Of a stretch of DNA of 43,785 nt, positions 2,362 through 40,707 are shown piece after piece. The DNA is taken from the NCBI GenBank assembly GCA_016789755.1, contig JAEUQG010000339.1:1-43785 (forward strand). The letters run 5' to 3'. Positions within the stretch are counted from its first letter, which is position 1. Every line of letters begins with the position of its first letter. A program made the translations under genes and the position numbers. Below the pieces are notes generated by a model. That model searched no databases. It was not told the DNA's origin and saw only the letters and a list, made by a program, of their open reading frames with translations. The stretch is from Bryobacterales bacterium (GTDB taxonomy: Bacteria > Acidobacteriota > Terriglobia > Bryobacterales > Bryobacteraceae).

Positions 2362-3621
2362 ATGGTGGAAACGCGCGGCCGCGAGCAGAAACGGGAAGCT
2401 CTGGATGCCGTGCTGGCGAGCCGGACCTTTGAACGCAGCCCTCAGTTGAAGGCATTTTTGCGCTTTGTGTGCGAGCGCGAAATGGAGGGTGCGGCGGAGA
2501 CGTTGAGCGAGTATGTAATCGGGGTAGACGTCCTGGGGCGGCCCGACGGATACTCACCGACGGAGGACGCAATCGTGCGGAACCGTGCGTTCGCGTTGCG
2601 GCGGAAACTGGATGAGTATTACCTGCATGAGAACGCTGGGGCTCGGGTGCGGATTGAGATACCGCGGGGACAGTATGCTCCGATCTTCGTGGCTGTGGAG
2701 GCCGAGGCGGGGGAGGAAGCGGAAGGGCCGGACGTTCCGGTGAAGGAGAAAGCCGGGCCGTGGAGAGGCGGTTTGGCCATTGCGTTTATGGCGGGATTGG
2801 CGGTGGCTTCGCTCGTATGGTGGATTGGGCGTCCGGCAGAAGCTGAAAGGGTGGACGAGGCGTTGCGGGCGTCGTGGGGACCGCTTTTACTGGGGCCAGA
2901 AGCCACAATCGTCCATATCTCAGCCCCGCTGCATCTGTTCGTGCGTCCCAACGATACGCGGATGCCGGATGAGCGGCCGCGGATTGAGCAGGAGGATCTG
3001 CTGCGGTGGTACCGGCACTTTCCGCAGTTGCCGCCGGCGGAGCGGCTGTTCGTGCGGCCGACACCGAATGCTCCGTTGTGGGGGGATGCGTTGTCGATGT
3101 CGATTGTGGGGCGGGTGTTGGAACGGTCGGGGGTGGCATGGGAGGTCATGCCGGCGCGGGTGGGATCGGAGCCGCTGTTGCGGAATCGGAATGCGCTGGT
3201 GCTGGGACGTCCGGAGTATAGCCGGGTGGCGGGAAAGCTGCTGGAGCGGCAGCCGCTCACGGTGGAGTATCACGAAGGGTTGCGGGAGTACGCGGTGCTG
3301 GATCGGGGTAAAGGGGAGCGGTGGTTTCTACCGAGGTATGGAGCGAACGATTATGCGGAGGTGGTGTACGGTTTGATAACCGTGATGCCGAGCGAAGGAT
3401 CGCCGGCGGGGGACCGCAGGACGGTGGTGCTGACCGGGACGAATTCGGCGGGAGCGCAGGCGGCGGCGGAGTTCTGGAGTTCGGCGCGGGAGATGGGGGC
3501 TTTGCGCGCACGAATGGAAGGGGTGCTGCCTCGCGGTTACCAGGTGCTTGTGCGTGCGACGTCCAGCGCTACGATGACGCTGGACGTGTTTTACGAAAGC
3601 CACCGTGTGGTGGAGCGTTAG
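2362..3621 (+). CDS. Membrane-anchored regulator-like protein of acidobacterial type
   Basis: 419 residues. Residues 10-110 resemble the N-terminal domain found in many Solibacter-type proteins: a segment like FERSPQLKAFLRFVCE, then LSEYVIGVDVLGRPDGYSP, then DAIVRNRAFALRRKLDEYY and RVRIEIPRGQYAPIF. That domain looks like a helical, possibly DNA-binding, unit. A linker leads to one membrane helix (about 136-155, AIAFMAGLAVASLVWW), and residues 160-419 would be outside the cytoplasm. The outer part has no family I can name; it alternates strand and helix like a ligand-binding fold. The topology (cytoplasmic possible DNA-binding part, membrane helix, outer sensor) and the divergent TonB receptor suggest a one-component membrane regulator, but this is inference. 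The stop overlaps the convergent msrP stop by 4 bases. Confidence 0.75.
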   Translation: MVETRGREQKREALDAVLASRTFERSPQLKAFLRFVCEREMEGAAETLSEYVIGVDVLGRPDGYSPTEDAIVRNRAFALRRKLDEYYLHENAGARVRIEIPRGQYAPIFVAVEAEAGEEAEGPDVPVKEKAGPWRGGLAIAFMAGLAVASLVWWIGRPAEAERVDEALRASWGPLLLGPEATIVHISAPLHLFVRPNDTRMPDERPRIEQEDLLRWYRHFPQLPPAERLFVRPTPNAPLWGDALSMSIVGRVLERSGVAWEVMPARVGSEPLLRNRNALVLGRPEYSRVAGKLLERQPLTVEYHEGLREYAVLDRGKGERWFLPRYGANDYAEVVYGLITVMPSEGSPAGDRRTVVLTGTNSAGAQAAAEFWSSAREMGALRARMEGVLPRGYQVLVRATSSATMTLDVFYESHRVVER

Positions 3622-4547
3622 AACTCTTTTCCGTTGTACAAGGCAGAGACGTGTTTTTCGTACCCGTTGTACATGAGAGTGGGGCGCCGCTCCATGGTGG
3701 GGATGACCTTCTCGAACGCTTGAGACCAACGCGGGTGGGACTTCTGGGGATTGACGTTGGAATAGAAGCCGTATTCGGAAGGCTGCAACTGATGCCAGAG
3801 GGTTTCCGGTTCCTTGGCCACGAATTCAATTTTTACGATGGATTTGATGCTCTTGTAACCGTACTTCCAAGGCACGACGAGACGGATGGGAGCGCCGTTC
3901 TGCTTGGGGAGCGGCTTGCCGTACATACCGGTGACGACCAGTGTGAGCGGGTTCATGGCTTCGTCCATCCGGAGGCCTTCGGTGTAGGGCCAGGGATAGA
4001 AGGGCATGATTCGGATGCCAGGCATTTCCTTGGGGCGGTTGGCAGTCTGGAAGCGGATGTATTTCGCCTCGGACTTCGGCTGGAGAGCTTTGACAAGATT
4101 GGCCAGCGGGAAGCCGGTCCACGGGACGGCCATGGACCAAGCCTCGACACAGCGGAAGCGGTACAGCCGTTCTTCGAGGGGGTACGTTTTGAGGATATCG
4201 TCGAAGTCGAGGGTCTGCGGCTTGGCGACGAGGCCACTCACTTCGATTTTCCAGGGGCTTGTGACAAAGTTGCCGACCTTGTGACGGACGGCCTGTTTGT
4301 CCTGCGCGTCGAATTCGTAGAAGTTGTTGTAACCGGTGGCGGCGAACTCTTCGGTGACAGGCCGATCGAGCGCGAACTCGGAGTTACGCTTGGCGGGATA
4401 GAGGGGTTGGCCTTCGGCGGCAGCGAGCAGGCGTTCCACACCGAGGAAGCCGGCAGCCTTGAGGATTTGGCGGCGGTTGAGGAATACGTGCTCCGGAGTC
4501 GCTTCACGCTCCGGGATCTCCCAGCCATTCGGAATCTTAATCAGCAT
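3618..4547 (-). CDS. msrP: Periplasmic protein-methionine-sulfoxide reductase, catalytic subunit MsrP (YedY)
   Basis: 309 residues, close to the roughly 330 of the E. coli protein. MsrP is a molybdenum-molybdopterin enzyme that repairs oxidised methionines in periplasmic proteins. A Tat signal is visible (NRRQILKAAGF, twin Arg at 25-26). The core carries YNNFYEFDAQD, the PLEERLYRFRCVEAWSM block with the Mo-ligand cysteine C133, VPWTGFPL, NGAPIRLVVPWKYGYKSIKSI and YGFYSNVNP, all near identical to known MsrP. The start has a GAAAGG ribosome site about 7 bases upstream. In proteobacteria msrP is followed by msrQ, the haem-containing membrane electron donor; none is present here, so the donor must be encoded elsewhere. 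It is divergent from the propeller gene at 4615 and convergent with the 2362 gene. Confidence 0.95.
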   Translation of the reverse strand: MLIKIPNGWEIPEREATPEHVFLNRRQILKAAGFLGVERLLAAAEGQPLYPAKRNSEFALDRPVTEEFAATGYNNFYEFDAQDKQAVRHKVGNFVTSPWKIEVSGLVAKPQTLDFDDILKTYPLEERLYRFRCVEAWSMAVPWTGFPLANLVKALQPKSEAKYIRFQTANRPKEMPGIRIMPFYPWPYTEGLRMDEAMNPLTLVVTGMYGKPLPKQNGAPIRLVVPWKYGYKSIKSIVKIEFVAKEPETLWHQLQPSEYGFYSNVNPQKSHPRWSQAFEKVIPTMERRPTLMYNGYEKHVSALYNGKEF

Positions 4548-4577
4548 CGTCGAGCCTTTCTTTCCCTATTCTATCCC

Positions 4578-4607
4578 TTTACTATGGCCACATATTCCCG
4601 ATATGCT
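4578..4607 (+). promoter_or_regulatory. Candidate promoter of the propeller gene
   Basis: TTTACT (4578-4583), an 18 bp spacer and TATGCT (4602-4607). Transcription would begin at about the ATG at 4615, which argues for a leaderless mRNA and supports 4615 as the true start over several upstream in-frame codons that lie inside msrP. Confidence 0.4.
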
Positions 4608-4614
4608 GCCTTTC

Positions 4615-5616
4615 ATGCAACACAGACATTGGACGGACGAACGAGCACGGGGAGGCCGGTGCGGGCTGTTGTTCGCGCTGGGGGTCTGCCTGCTGGGCGC
4701 CCAGGACATCGCCGTTGTGGAGAAGAAGGCCGGCATGGTGGCCTTCTATGACGCAACGGGCAAGCGCACGGGGGAGGTGAAAGTCGGCAGCCATCCTCAT
4801 GAACTGATGTTTTCGGCGGACCGGAAGTTTCTCTATGTATCGGACAACGGGATGCTGTGGATGACGGACAAGGGGGAGGGGTGGAACACGATCTCCATCA
4901 TCGATGTGTCGAAGCGGAAGAAGGCAGGGGTGATCGATTTGGGGAATTACCGGCGTCCGCACGGTCTGGATCTGAATCCGAAGACCGGGCAGATTCTTTC
5001 GACAATCGAAAATCCATACGGGTTGCTGCTGATCGATCCGGTTGCGCGGAAGGTGCTGCGCAAGTTCGATGTGCAAGGGACGAGCCCGCACATGGCGATC
5101 TACGGGCCGAGGCACGAGACGGCTTGGGTCAGCAACTCGGGGACGGGGACGCTGGCGATCGTGGACCTGACGAGCGGGGCGGTGAAACTGGTGGCGGTGG
5201 GCAAGAATCCGCAGGGGGCGGTGATGACACGCGATCAGAGGACGGTGTATCTCACGATATCGCAGGAGAACCGGATTGCGATCATCGACACGGCGAGGCA
5301 AGAGGTGACGGGGAACATCCCGACGGGAGGCGCTCCGGCGCGGCTGGCGCTGACTCCGGACGAGAAGATGCTGGTCTACAACTGGCAAGAAGACGGGGTG
5401 GCGTTCGCCGATATCGCGGCGCGCAGGGAAGTGGGGCATGCCAAACTGCCTGGGCGTCCGTTGTCGCTGTATTTGTCGCGTGACGGCAAGCGGGCGTACT
5501 TGGGGATTCAGGACAGCGACAAGATTGCAATTGCGGATGTTACGACGCGGAAGGTGACGAGAATTTTCGACACGCCGAAAGGGCACGGGCCGGACACGAT
5601 CGTAGAGGTACCGTAG
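4615..5616 (+). CDS. YncE-like secreted seven-bladed beta-propeller protein
   Basis: 333 residues from the ATG at 4615 (an ATG at 4603 would add four). The N-terminus holds a signal peptide (CGLLFALGVCLLGAQ). The rest is built of roughly 40-residue units with the YncE/YVTN pattern: HPHELMFSADRKFLYVSDN, TISIIDVSKRKKAGVIDLGN, GTLAIVDLTSGAVKLVAVG, RIAIIDTARQEVTGNIPTGG and KIAIADVTTRKVTRIFDTPKG. Such propellers are periplasmic or secreted binding proteins; no catalytic residues are evident and no ligand can be assigned. The gene is divergent from msrP and its stop lies 4 bases from the convergent thiol-oxidoreductase stop. Frames running further upstream overlap the msrP start and have no secretion signal at their own N-terminus. 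Confidence 0.85.
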   Translation: MQHRHWTDERARGGRCGLLFALGVCLLGAQDIAVVEKKAGMVAFYDATGKRTGEVKVGSHPHELMFSADRKFLYVSDNGMLWMTDKGEGWNTISIIDVSKRKKAGVIDLGNYRRPHGLDLNPKTGQILSTIENPYGLLLIDPVARKVLRKFDVQGTSPHMAIYGPRHETAWVSNSGTGTLAIVDLTSGAVKLVAVGKNPQGAVMTRDQRTVYLTISQENRIAIIDTARQEVTGNIPTGGAPARLALTPDEKMLVYNWQEDGVAFADIAARREVGHAKLPGRPLSLYLSRDGKRAYLGIQDSDKIAIADVTTRKVTRIFDTPKGHGPDTIVEVP

Positions 5617-36479: not shown

Positions 36480-38144
36480 ATGAAAACCACACGCAGGGCC
36501 TGGATGCAGGCAACCGCGGCAGCCCCGTTGCTGGCCGCTGACGCATCGCTCGATCTCGAAACCACCGCAGCCCGGAACCATGACAAGGGGGTGGAGAACC
36601 TACTCCGCATCCAGATCACGGAGCCGGGGCATCGGCATCGGGGCTCGTGGCCGGACGCATTTGGCATCCACTACCCGGCATCTCCGGCAGCATCGTCGGA
36701 CACGTTCACGGCGGCGTTTCTGCATCCGAAATCGAAGTTCCACAAGAACCCGCTGATGTTGGAACGCATGAAACTGGGCATCGACTACGCCGTGAGCACA
36801 ATGACTCCCGACGGCAACATCCATTTGCCTTTCACCAACTTCAACTCGCCACCCGATACCGCGTTCGCCGTGTGGGGCGCAGGCAACGCGGCTTGTCTGG
36901 CAAAGAAGCACGGCGCACGGGAGATCCTGCAGACTCTGGATCCGTTCCTGACCCGGGCCAAGAGGGGCTTGCTGAACGGCGGCATGCACACGCCGAATCA
37001 CCGCTGGGTGGCATGCTCGGCGATGGCACTGTTGCACGAGGCGAACCCGGACCCGGCGTTCCTCAAGCGCATCGAACAGTGGCTGGCCGAAGGGATCGAC
37101 ATCGATGAAGACGGACAATACGACGAACGGAGCATTATCGGCTACAACGTCATCGTCGACCGTTCGCTGGTGATTATGGCCGACAAGCTGAAGCGGCCGG
37201 AACTGTTGGAGCCGCTGCGGAAGAACCTGGATGCGGCGTTTTACCTGATGCATCCAGGTGACGAGATGGTGACTGAGATCAGCCACCGCCAGGATCGCAA
37301 CGCCATCGGGAATATCGGGGTTTACTGGTTCCCCATGCACTACATGGCGACGCGCGACAACAACCCACGTTATGCCTGGGTGGCGCAGAAATACGCACCC
37401 GCCCATGCGGCGCTGTCGATGCTGATGTCTTATCCGAACATGCTCAAACCGCTGCCGGCGGTGGAAGCGCCCTCGGAGAACTATGCGAAGGAGTTCAAGG
37501 CCCTGGAAATTGTCCGCATCCGGCGGGGCGAGAAGAGCGCCACCATCATGTTGCGAGGCGACAGTCGTTTTCTCATGCTGCGCAGCGGCGATGCCGTCGT
37601 TGGCGCGCTCCGCTTCGCCAGCGCCTTTTTCGGCAAGGCGCAGTTTATCCCTCGCACCTGGACGAAGTCAGGCAGCGGCTACGTGCTCAAGCAGGAACTG
37701 AGCGGTCCATACTATCAGCCGCTCAACCCACCGCATCGAGTGAAGGCCGGCGAATGGAACGAGACAAGGCCGGAGCGCCAGCGGACGGAGGTTTGCCACC
37801 TGGAACAGATTGCGACCATCACCGAAACAGAGAGGGGCTTTCGTGTTCGGATACAGGCGCACGGCACGGACAACGTTCCACTGGCGATCGAGATCAGCGC
37901 GCGCGACAAAGACCAGCTCAACGTCAGCAGACTGGCGGCGGCTCCGCAGGCAGCGGGCGCATGGCTGCTTGGGAAGGGCACGGGAAGCATCAAGAGCGGG
38001 CGGCACGAAGTCCGTTTCGGCCCGGGAGTGGAAGCGCACCAGTACACGCAGGTACGCGGGGCTGAGGCGATGATGCCGGGCCAGAGTGTGTATCTCACGG
38101 GATTCACGCCCTTCGATCACACTATCGAGTTTGAATGTCTTTGA
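36480..38144 (+). CDS. Tat-exported protein, possible polysaccharide lyase with helical toroid and beta-sandwich
   Basis: 554 residues with a Tat-like signal (KTTRRAWMQATAAAPLLAA). Residues about 40-330 look all-helical, with repeated aromatic and charged stretches: DTAFAVWGAGNAACLAKKHG, GLLNGGMHTPNHRWVACSAM, WLAEGIDIDEDGQYDERSII and MVTEISHRQDRNAIGNIGVY. Residues about 345-554 look beta-rich. That layout, with conserved NHR and GYN-type Tyr/His candidates, fits an (alpha/alpha)-toroid polysaccharide lyase or a heparinase II/III-like protein, but I cannot assign a family and the catalytic residues are guesses. A weak AAGG precedes the ATG. The stop overlaps the end of the convergent esterase/sialidase gene by 23 bases. 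Confidence 0.72.
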   Translation: MKTTRRAWMQATAAAPLLAADASLDLETTAARNHDKGVENLLRIQITEPGHRHRGSWPDAFGIHYPASPAASSDTFTAAFLHPKSKFHKNPLMLERMKLGIDYAVSTMTPDGNIHLPFTNFNSPPDTAFAVWGAGNAACLAKKHGAREILQTLDPFLTRAKRGLLNGGMHTPNHRWVACSAMALLHEANPDPAFLKRIEQWLAEGIDIDEDGQYDERSIIGYNVIVDRSLVIMADKLKRPELLEPLRKNLDAAFYLMHPGDEMVTEISHRQDRNAIGNIGVYWFPMHYMATRDNNPRYAWVAQKYAPAHAALSMLMSYPNMLKPLPAVEAPSENYAKEFKALEIVRIRRGEKSATIMLRGDSRFLMLRSGDAVVGALRFASAFFGKAQFIPRTWTKSGSGYVLKQELSGPYYQPLNPPHRVKAGEWNETRPERQRTEVCHLEQIATITETERGFRVRIQAHGTDNVPLAIEISARDKDQLNVSRLAAAPQAAGAWLLGKGTGSIKSGRHEVRFGPGVEAHQYTQVRGAEAMMPGQSVYLTGFTPFDHTIEFECL

Positions 38145-40707
38145 GCGCGACGCGAAGCAGCACGATGTCTTCCATGTTTTCGGAGTGGATGACGTAGAGG
38201 TAGCCGCCGTGCTCGAGCAACTGCGGATAGTGGTAGCCGGCGTAGCCCGGGTCTTTGCCGGCGTAGCGATAGACAGTGTCGCGGCCGCGGAGGATCATCA
38301 TCCAGTCAAACACGACGCCGTCGTCTGAAAGGGACAGGCACAGGGGGATTCTTTTTCCGGAAGGATTGGGGCAGGACGCCATGGCGTAGGCTCCGTTCGA
38401 GAGCCGCAGAACGTTGAACTTGGCCATCGCATCGGGAAAGTCCGTAGGTACGGGAGAACTCCAGCGGCCGCCGCCATCTGTACTGAAGGAGCGGAACAAA
38501 CGGCGTGACCGGCTGCCATCGCGGAAGGCCGTCGAGAGCGCCCCATTGGGCAGGGTCCACCATTCGGGCTCGTCGAGCATGGCGCCACCGGCGGGTTTGG
38601 GCACCTCGACTGCTTTCCAAGCCGATGGGGACGTACGGCCACCGATGAGCAGTGAAGCACGCATCTTATGGTCGCGCCGGGTCATCATCCAATCGCCAGA
38701 AGCCAACAGGCGCGGAGCGAAGTTGTTGATGGCATCCTTGGCGACAAGGAACGGTTCACTCCAACGTCCGTTCCAGCGGTAGCCGCGCAGTTCGAGTCCG
38801 GGTCCGAATAGCGGCCGCACGGCTTCGTCACGAGCCGCCAGTGCGATCAACTCCCCGTTGCGCACCCAGAGGCCACGAGCGAAGTAGCGATAGTTCTCTT
38901 TCTCCTCGCTGGGAGTCAGCATGCGGGACTCCGACCACGTCACACCATCGCGGCTCGTCGCATAGCGAACATATTGACCGGCCTGCAAATCGCGAATCTT
39001 GTTGCAACTCCAGATGGCCCAGAACCGGCCATCGAACCACGCCAGGTACGGATGCATGTTGAAGCCAGTCATCGTTTCGACGCCACGGTAGACGGTGATG
39101 GTCTCCACCGGCACCGGCAGCAGCGCATCGAGGGCAGGCCCCGCATACATGTGCGACTCCACCTTGGCGATGAAGGCGTTCGCCCTTCGGGCGGCGTCTT
39201 CTGGCACGTCGCGGGGAATGCCATGCCCCGAACCAGCCATCCATGCGAGTTCAATGTTCGGGCGATCCGGCACACGCAGCAGCTTGCGCGGCGGGCGATC
39301 CGTACGGCCTCGATCACCCCACATCGACAGCAGCGGCAATTTGGTGGATTGGAGGACGGCCGAGCCATCCCACTGGCGCCACACCGAGCCGAATGCCTTG
39401 CGCTGCGACTCAGTCAACTGCCCCAGCACGTCCAGCATCTGCGGCGTACGCTTCGATGGCTCGCCCACTTCGAAGGCTTCGGCCTGCACCTGATGATGCG
39501 TCCAGCCCTCCATCGCGATTCCGCCTGCCACCTGTTTCGGGCGCAAGCCCATCAGTTCAATGGTCAGCATCCCGCCGATGCTGTGGCCACCGACGTAGTA
39601 CCGCTTCAAATCGAGGGCGTCCACCACTGCCAACACATTCTCCGCAAGACTGCGCATGGTAGGCGCCTCGTCCGCGGGTTGCGTGGCGCCGTGACCCGGC
39701 AGTTCCACGATGATCACGCGGAGATCGGGCCGCAGCACATCGAGCATGCGGTGAAAAGAGGAATGATCGCCCCAGCTTCCCGGGATGAGCACCACGTTCG
39801 GCCCGTTGCCGTCGCGCACGTAGTAGGCAACACGCCCGGCAAAGCCGGGACGAAGCCGGACCGTGTCTTTGAGCCACTCGCGCAGCCTGCGCCGTTCGGG
39901 GAGGTCGCGCAATGTCCAGGCGTCGTTGTGGTTGCGGAAGGGGATGGGGACAAAGGTGAAGGGGGCCTTGACGCCGGAGGCTTTCACATACTGGCGGGTC
40001 GCCTCGATCGACCCTTCGTGGCAAACAAACACGGGCCGGCCGTTGAGCCGCTGCAACCTCCGGCGCGCCGACTCGGGATCGCTGCCTTCGTATGGCCAGG
40101 CGCGAACACCGTCGTAGTGACTACAGGCGACGAAACCGCGCCAGAGCGTGGCGATCTCATCGTCATGAAGCCCGATGAAGTTGCAGGCAATGGCGCCGCG
40201 GGAGAATCCGCAGAGGATCACTGCATCGGGGTCACCGCCGAAGCGGGCGCAGACATCGCGCACGGTGCGCTTGCAGTAATCGACGGTGGCTTTGACGTCT
40301 CCCCACCAAGTCTCCTGATTGCGCCCCTCCGCCTTGTTCACGTAGGGCATGCATACCCAGATAAAGCCGCTCCCCGCGCTCATGCCGTAGCCGAGGTTGC
40401 TGCCTTCCACCGTGCCATGCGACACGTCGCCGAAGCGATTGCGGTAGTTGCCATTGCCCGCGTATTCAACGATGACTGAATACTTCTCACCCTGGCGCCA
40501 ATCGGTGGGCAGATACAGCGCGTGATGTACGCCGGCCCCTTCGTATCCGGCAGTGGTCTGCCGTACCCGCGTGCCCGCAGCGGGCTCGCCTGCGGTCATT
40601 GGAGGAGTGACCAGATCGACGGGAATCGTAGCAAGGTCGGGCAATTCCTGCTGGGCGTTGGCGAGGGGAACCAAGCTAGCAAGCACAAGATCACGGCGGC
40701 GCAACAT
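38122..40707 (-). CDS. Three-domain secreted protein: alpha/beta-hydrolase, second alpha/beta-hydrolase, sialidase-like propeller
   Basis: 861 residues. Leader LRRRDLVLASLVPLANAQ. Domain 1 (about 40-285) is an esterase of the PHB-depolymerase/Esterase-D type: YSVIVEYAGNGNY, nucleophile motif ILCGFSRGA (S169) and candidate histidine H260 in FRNHNDAW. Domain 2 (about 290-520) is a complete classical alpha/beta-hydrolase: VVLIPGSWGDHSSFHRMLDV, VGGHSIGGM (S376), LSMWGDRG (D465) and MAGSGHGIP (H495). Domain 3 (about 530-861) is a BNR/sialidase-type propeller with Asp boxes SRDGVTWS and STDGGGRWSS plus SDDGVVFDW. Acyl groups on a glycan or glycoconjugate would be a logical substrate for such a combination, but this is inference. 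It is divergent from the 40751 gene. Confidence 0.85.
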   Translation of the reverse strand: MLRRRDLVLASLVPLANAQQELPDLATIPVDLVTPPMTAGEPAAGTRVRQTTAGYEGAGVHHALYLPTDWRQGEKYSVIVEYAGNGNYRNRFGDVSHGTVEGSNLGYGMSAGSGFIWVCMPYVNKAEGRNQETWWGDVKATVDYCKRTVRDVCARFGGDPDAVILCGFSRGAIACNFIGLHDDEIATLWRGFVACSHYDGVRAWPYEGSDPESARRRLQRLNGRPVFVCHEGSIEATRQYVKASGVKAPFTFVPIPFRNHNDAWTLRDLPERRRLREWLKDTVRLRPGFAGRVAYYVRDGNGPNVVLIPGSWGDHSSFHRMLDVLRPDLRVIIVELPGHGATQPADEAPTMRSLAENVLAVVDALDLKRYYVGGHSIGGMLTIELMGLRPKQVAGGIAMEGWTHHQVQAEAFEVGEPSKRTPQMLDVLGQLTESQRKAFGSVWRQWDGSAVLQSTKLPLLSMWGDRGRTDRPPRKLLRVPDRPNIELAWMAGSGHGIPRDVPEDAARRANAFIAKVESHMYAGPALDALLPVPVETITVYRGVETMTGFNMHPYLAWFDGRFWAIWSCNKIRDLQAGQYVRYATSRDGVTWSESRMLTPSEEKENYRYFARGLWVRNGELIALAARDEAVRPLFGPGLELRGYRWNGRWSEPFLVAKDAINNFAPRLLASGDWMMTRRDHKMRASLLIGGRTSPSAWKAVEVPKPAGGAMLDEPEWWTLPNGALSTAFRDGSRSRRLFRSFSTDGGGRWSSPVPTDFPDAMAKFNVLRLSNGAYAMASCPNPSGKRIPLCLSLSDDGVVFDWMMILRGRDTVYRYAGKDPGYAGYHYPQLLEHGGYLYVIHSENMEDIVLLRVALKDIQTR

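Follow-up and report, generated by a model that had tools for sequence, protein, structure and literature searches.

A fused protein of two predicted serine hydrolases and a sialidase-fold propeller in a Bryobacterales draft genome

The locus described here encodes, within a single open reading frame, two putative esterases followed by a propeller that resembles those of sialidases, which raises the questions of whether the three parts form one genuine protein, how many of them may be active enzymes, and whether the propeller deserves the name sialidase. The window, i.e., the whole analysed stretch of 43,785 nucleotides, is contig C558 of the 8.2-Mb draft genome of a soil acidobacterium (596 contigs, 87% complete), whose relatives carry the names Acidobacteria and Bryobacterales. 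The reading frame and its N-terminal stretch are located as follows:

38122..40707, minus strand: three-domain open reading frame of 861 amino acids (ATG at 40707, stop at 38122; homologue in a sister species 85% identical over the full length)
40648..40707, minus strand: putative N-terminal signal-like peptide, residues 1-20, MLRRRDLVLASLVPLANAQQ (sequence reading; pLDDT 55-64)

An earlier sequence-only reading had proposed this frame, and its boundaries proved exact; it lies on the minus strand, and stops are present in the matching frame of the plus strand. The proposal that two distinct alpha/beta-hydrolases and a sialidase-type propeller occur in one chain was borne out by Pfam, structural models and conserved candidate residues. 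In the Pfam search with the 861-residue protein, Abhydrolase_6 matched residues 305-503 (E 4e-13; the span of Abhydrolase_6/1 being 303-503) and BNR_2 matched residues 557-838 (E 1.5e-20), while the first 290 residues were without any match. The predicted nucleophile motifs GFSRG (S169) and GHSIGG (S376), as well as D465 and H495, were located at the proposed positions, and BNR/Asp-box-like motifs were found towards the C-terminus at residues 585, 742 and 794. The N-terminus, read directly from the fusion sequence as MLRRRDLVLASLVPLANA, is signal-like and contains a pair of arginines, and omega within residues 1-20 is 0.32, above that of the rest of the protein. We infer that the protein may be exported by a Tat- or Sec-dependent route.

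A matching frame of 859 amino acids (85% amino-acid identity) was identified in a sister species (G059, locus L038, JAFDVS010000014.1, counted as one record). Homologues split by stops had been put forward as a sign of assembly error; the sister copy is unbroken. The dN/dS ratios between the two copies are 0.039 for the first domain (D1), 0.098 for the second (D2) and 0.052 for the third (D3), and each of the three is under purifying selection. For structure prediction with AlphaFold2, D1 and D2+D3 were modelled as two separate units. D1 and its candidate catalytic residues are:

39856..40647, minus strand: D1, residues 21-284, predicted alpha/beta-hydrolase of an un-named family (AlphaFold2 pLDDT, invariant residues, match to Est1E)
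40201-40203, minus strand: candidate nucleophile S169
40015-40017, minus strand: candidate acid E231
40111-40113, minus strand: alternative candidate acid D199
39928-39930, minus strand: candidate histidine H260

No Pfam or NCBIfam family matched D1 above the cut-off, matches to COesterase/Esterase being weak; a sequence search against solved structures gave nothing convincing, and a PHROGs search returned generic esterase matches only. The AlphaFold2 model, built from 47 sequences, has the alpha/beta-hydrolase fold with a mean pLDDT of 94.3 and places S169 at the nucleophile elbow, and the solved structures that match its fold (VIA) are generic esterases, Est1E (2wtm) at Z 17.5 and, at about Z 16, esterases acting on feruloyl groups or on acetyl xylan. 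Within the model, S169 follows the strand 158-168, E231 ends the strand 226-231, D199 follows the strand 191-195 and H260 follows the strand 250-255. This predicted arrangement corresponds to the serine-esterase pattern of an elbow serine, a histidine past the last strand and an acid past strand 6 or 7. All four residues are invariant in 85 relatives from Acidobacteria, Verrucomicrobia, Planctomycetes, Lentisphaerae and others; a missing triad in D1 had been named beforehand as a possible refutation, and with serine, histidine and acid conserved throughout, D1 stands. Glu231 is more likely to be the acid than Asp199 because it is positioned after strand 7, the usual place. The fold, together with the placement and invariance of serine, histidine and acids, makes it very likely that D1 is an active serine hydrolase, belonging to a family without a Pfam entry.

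The second domain was assigned to a known family:

39136..39843, minus strand: D2, residues 289-524, predicted alpha/beta-hydrolase, Abhydrolase_6/1 (Pfam, PDB sequence matches, alignment, Foldseek)
39580-39582, minus strand: S376 of the putative D2 triad
39313-39315, minus strand: D465 of the putative D2 triad
39223-39225, minus strand: H495 of the putative D2 triad

The Pfam scores of D2 (50.8 bits for Abhydrolase_6 and 49.1 bits for Abhydrolase_1) are above the cut-off. The serine and histidine are invariant, and Asp465 is present in all copies except that of the sister species (L038), in which it is Glu; omega is higher in D2 than in D1 or D3. Judged by its sequence, D2 is an ordinary alpha/beta-hydrolase with a Ser-Asp-His triad and is unrelated to D1. 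An origin of D1 and D2 by tandem duplication of one esterase was considered and rejected, as their profiles match weakly around the nucleophile elbow with an hhalign probability of 2%; a recent tandem duplication does not account for the two domains. Sialate O-acetylesterase families were not among the Pfam and NCBIfam matches of either domain.

The propeller follows directly:

38137..39129, minus strand: D3, residues 527-857, predicted six-bladed sialidase-fold propeller (BNR_2; BT_1020/GH143-like; Pfam, VIA, HMMER, hhalign)
38569-38571, minus strand: candidate active-site residue E713
38521-38523, minus strand: candidate active-site residue R729
38350-38352, minus strand: candidate active-site residue R786
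38227-38229, minus strand: candidate active-site residue Y827
39058-39060, minus strand: N550, at the place of the first sialidase arginine

The AlphaFold2 model of D2+D3 (pLDDT 91.5) places D3 close to the Micromonospora sialidase 1w8o in fold (VIA; Z 33.1, 2.5 A over 309 residues). By sequence, the closest solved protein is BT_1020 (5mqr), with a profile E of 5e-25 vs 9e-5 for the best sialidase; BT_1020 is the B. thetaiotaomicron founding member of GH143. The absence of an enzyme-like pocket from the propeller had been named as grounds for dropping the proposal; the alignments suggest that D3 has kept the equivalents of the sialidase Glu, two Arg and, probably, the Tyr. In the HMMER alignment, LDEP (E713) and FRDG (R729) of D3 pair with MDE and SRDS of 1eur, of which, in the published numbering of that enzyme, the Glu is the nucleophile's partner and the Arg the second arginine. 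E713 and R729 also align with the Glu and the second Arg of 4bbw, whose third-Arg region (SNP..R) aligns with R786, and hhalign against 31 GH33-like proteins of the order that carry YRIP gave the same assignments of E713 and the arginines as HMMER. The GH33 tyrosine is placed by hhalign at Y825, the neighbour of Y827. We nevertheless prefer Y827 as the probable tyrosine because it does not vary among 16 D3 domains and falls within a QYP/HYP motif common to BT_1020. Glu713 and Arg729 are invariant among D3 domains, and R786, R814, Y827 and an N-x-E-D end motif, all invariant in the 16, align with BT_1020.

The arginine triad of GH33 is incomplete in D3: the second (R729) and third (R786) are kept, and the FRIP/YRIP arginine is missing. 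Its position is taken by Asn550, within FNMHP/FNLHS, in all 16 D3 domains; this register was set by alignment on the motif and on G560 as an anchor, and by the matching motif in BT_1020, which has YNHQP. Even with Asn in place of the first Arg, D3 may act on an acidic sugar, since the carboxylate in GH156 enzymes, the fold of which is unrelated to that of D3, is held by two Arg and one Asn (PMC6811678).

Taken together, the reading that we favour, and hold to be probable, is that of a single enzyme, exported and equipped with three active sites, that strips a decorated glycan containing acid sugars. D1 and D2 would be serine esterases of different families removing ester-bound acetyl, methyl or aromatic acyl groups, and D3 would be a retaining exo-glycosidase of the six-bladed sialidase fold, nearest to the GH143/BT_1020 type, removing an acidic sugar of the ulosonic-acid type or one like it. 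The fusion would couple the steps, since loss of the ester groups would uncover the sugar on which D3 acts. What was observed is the presence of three domains with their predicted folds and conserved candidate residues, purifying selection on each and the recurrent linkage of the modules; from this we infer that all three are catalytically active, on which substrate and in what order they act, and that the protein is exported. Several findings count against this reading: Asn550 in place of the FRIP arginine, Glu in place of the D2 acid in the sister species, the confinement of the three-domain form to two species of one genus, the lack of a conserved operon partner of D1, and the Y825/Y827 register, which rests on motif spacing and conservation.

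The first two of these findings would also fit a protein of which some domains only are enzymes, the D3 propeller serving to bind glycans (or D2 having degenerated as a hydrolase) and targeting the active esterase or esterases to a polysaccharide; the omega of D2, the highest of the three, points the same way. However, Glu713, Arg729, Arg786 and Tyr827 are invariant, D3 has an omega of 0.05, and a sialidase set of Glu, Arg, Arg and Tyr would be unexpected in a pure binding module. We regard this explanation as unlikely. Rather improbable is a genuine sialidase function of D3, with D1 and D2 as sialate O-acetylesterases and O-acetylated sialic acids as the substrate. The fold match (Z 33), the retained Glu, two Arg and candidate Tyr, and other BNR_2 proteins with YRIP in the same genome (L146 and L149) are in line with such a function, but the first Arg is Asn in 16/16 D3 domains, as in BT_1020, the best sequence match, which is not a sialidase; moreover, neither D1 nor D2 matches a sialate esterase family, and a NanA-type sialic-acid lyase was not found above the curated cut-off in the window's genome at 87% completeness. 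The sialidase proposed by the sequence-only reading is therefore not upheld, and the label is unsupported and unfit for annotation of the fusion. That assembly or a frameshift joined two adjacent genes has next to no probability: the sister copy stems from a MAG, the window from a 596-contig draft, and the parts occur separately elsewhere, but an artefact is ruled out in practice because the sister contig has the same open frame at 85% identity with low dN/dS, the same genes on either side and a downstream gene that converges on it with the same overlap of 23 bp, the D1-D2 linker of a few residues contains neither a stop nor a second signal peptide, and the nucleotide differences fall mostly on third codon positions throughout the gene.

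Returning to the proposed three-site enzyme, we traced its modules through 257 genomes of the order. The three-domain order is rare, as had been supposed: the full protein is present in 2 of the 257, the window's genome and one sister of the same genus, at least one of the two (the sister) being a MAG. D1 occurs in 22/257 genomes, and stand-alone relatives with about 49-70% identity are found in records named Acidobacteria, Verrucomicrobia, Planctomycetes, Lentisphaerae, Kiritimatiellaeota and a few others. In the tree, the fused D1 nests within the stand-alone acidobacterial D1 proteins (support 0.86-0.89), and a D2+D3 two-domain protein is present in about a dozen genomes, one of them from another family of the phylum. 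The fusion probably goes back to an existing two-domain D2+D3 gene that acquired a stand-alone D1 gene at its front end. D1 and the D3 subfamily co-occur with an odds ratio of 7.6 (p 3e-4, Fisher, two fused genomes excluded, uncorrected for relatedness or genome size); for D1 vs D2+D3 alone the co-occurrence is not significant (p 0.06).

The modules are also found in other combinations. D1 is fused to SGNH/GDSL esterases in L057, L065 and L072 (Lentisphaerae and Planctomycetes records), an independent pairing of D1 with another esterase. A fusion of D1 to an acetamidase/formamidase-like domain was seen in L043, and L077 has D1 and a GH43/GH32-like domain in one frame, with an in-frame stop in the D1 part. 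Among 79 loci with stand-alone D1 no conserved operon partner was found; the commonest neighbour family, in 14 of them, is sulfatase-like judged by its start. Two loci, L125:4603-7464 and L213:1524-4376, encode D3 and FAD_oxidored (PF12831) as one protein, and in L211:2233-4830, where a D3 gene adjoins, it is D2 that is joined to this domain; such fusions suggest that FAD_oxidored works together with the D2/D3 modules. In L122 and L129, a FAD_oxidored gene comes after the D2+D3 gene. Doubled D3 propellers occur in the window's own genome (contig C6), L217 and L212. The C6 paralogue (2773-4848; loci L002, L003, L131) has 729 amino acids and two tandem D3 propellers, one of them above the cut-off of PF24067, the BT_1020 family; a sulfatase gene lies before it and a FAD_oxidored gene farther after it on the opposite strand. 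The same genome has 31 BNR_2 matches, at least two of them proteins with a canonical YRIP (L146, L149), a large sialidase-fold expansion for an acidobacterium with no NanA above the curated cut-off.

The gene lying tail-to-tail with the fusion had been regarded as a possible lyase:

36480..38144, plus strand: convergent neighbour of 554 amino acids, overlapping the fusion by 23 bp, no family found

The convergent gene does adjoin, and the lyase or partner role is not supported. Searches of Pfam, NCBIfam, PHROG and PDB gave no match, and the gene is present in 109/257 genomes of the order, most of which are without D2+D3, and it was seen adjoining the fusion, or parts of it, in none but the two species that carry the three-domain protein. 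A role as functional partner was rejected on this distribution; judged by its conservation, the gene probably represents an unclassified conserved family that is not part of the fusion's system. The other neighbours in the window (Pfam: DUF1501, PSD1/PSCyt, FtsX/MacB permease) give no functional clue.

Fusions indicate which enzymes act on the same substrate. Here a large un-named family, D1, which has no Pfam entry and is conserved in several phyla, is linked to a glycosidase of the sialidase clan, and in related fusions a FAD oxidoreductase is joined to these modules as well; for the otherwise unannotated D1 this provides a testable class of substrates, ester-decorated acidic-sugar glycans. 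Tentatively, and with some doubt, the modules could belong to an undescribed modular system of Acidobacteriota in which a new D1 esterase family, a lipase-like D2, a new Arg-Arg-Asn subfamily of the sialidase clan (D3) and a FAD oxidoreductase, shuffled among many fusions, act on one acidic-sugar polysaccharide; as part of that joint reading, serine carbohydrate esterases of the D1 type would form a new family, widespread among Acidobacteria, Planctomycetes, Verrucomicrobia and Lentisphaerae. Every part of the fusion has a known fold; for the architecture itself, a limited search of the literature found no report of an esterase-esterase-sialidase fusion. With Asn where sialidases have their first Arg, D3 is reminiscent of GH156 (PMC6811678) and could represent a further way of achieving such chemistry.

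With regard to known systems, D1 shares its fold with CE1-like/feruloyl esterases (Est1E, 2wtm) and acetyl xylan esterases (Z 16-17.5), but identity over these fold matches is 9-19%, and D1 belongs to no Pfam family and has conserved motifs of its own (NQETWWGD, GFSRG, SHYDG, FRNHNDAW). BT1017, a pectin methylesterase and serine alpha/beta-hydrolase of the pectin RG-II pathway (PMC7939467), comes from the organism that also has BT_1020; its likeness to D1 is a functional analogy, with no sequence link found and BT1017 absent among the structural matches listed for D1. With the GH33 sialidases (Micromonospora viridifaciens, 1w8o/1eur), D3 has the six-bladed fold, the Glu, two Arg and a probable Tyr in common, at 14% identity and with the first Arg absent. 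The closest known protein to D3 is the N-terminal propeller of BT_1020 (GH143; Dha hydrolase of rhamnogalacturonan II; PDB 5mqr; Pfam PF24067), which shares with it the Asn at the FRIP position and the motifs RxPL, RYxG, QYP/HYP and N-x-E-D. D3 of the window scores 16-18 bits with PF24067, below the 27-bit cut-off, whereas D3 paralogues in the same genome and in relatives pass it. Unlike BT_1020, D3 has the sialidase-like pair E713/R729, the R729 stretch facing a gap in the BT_1020 alignment, and whereas BT_1020 is joined to another glycosidase domain (PMC6811678; 5mqr entry name), D3 is joined to putative esterases.
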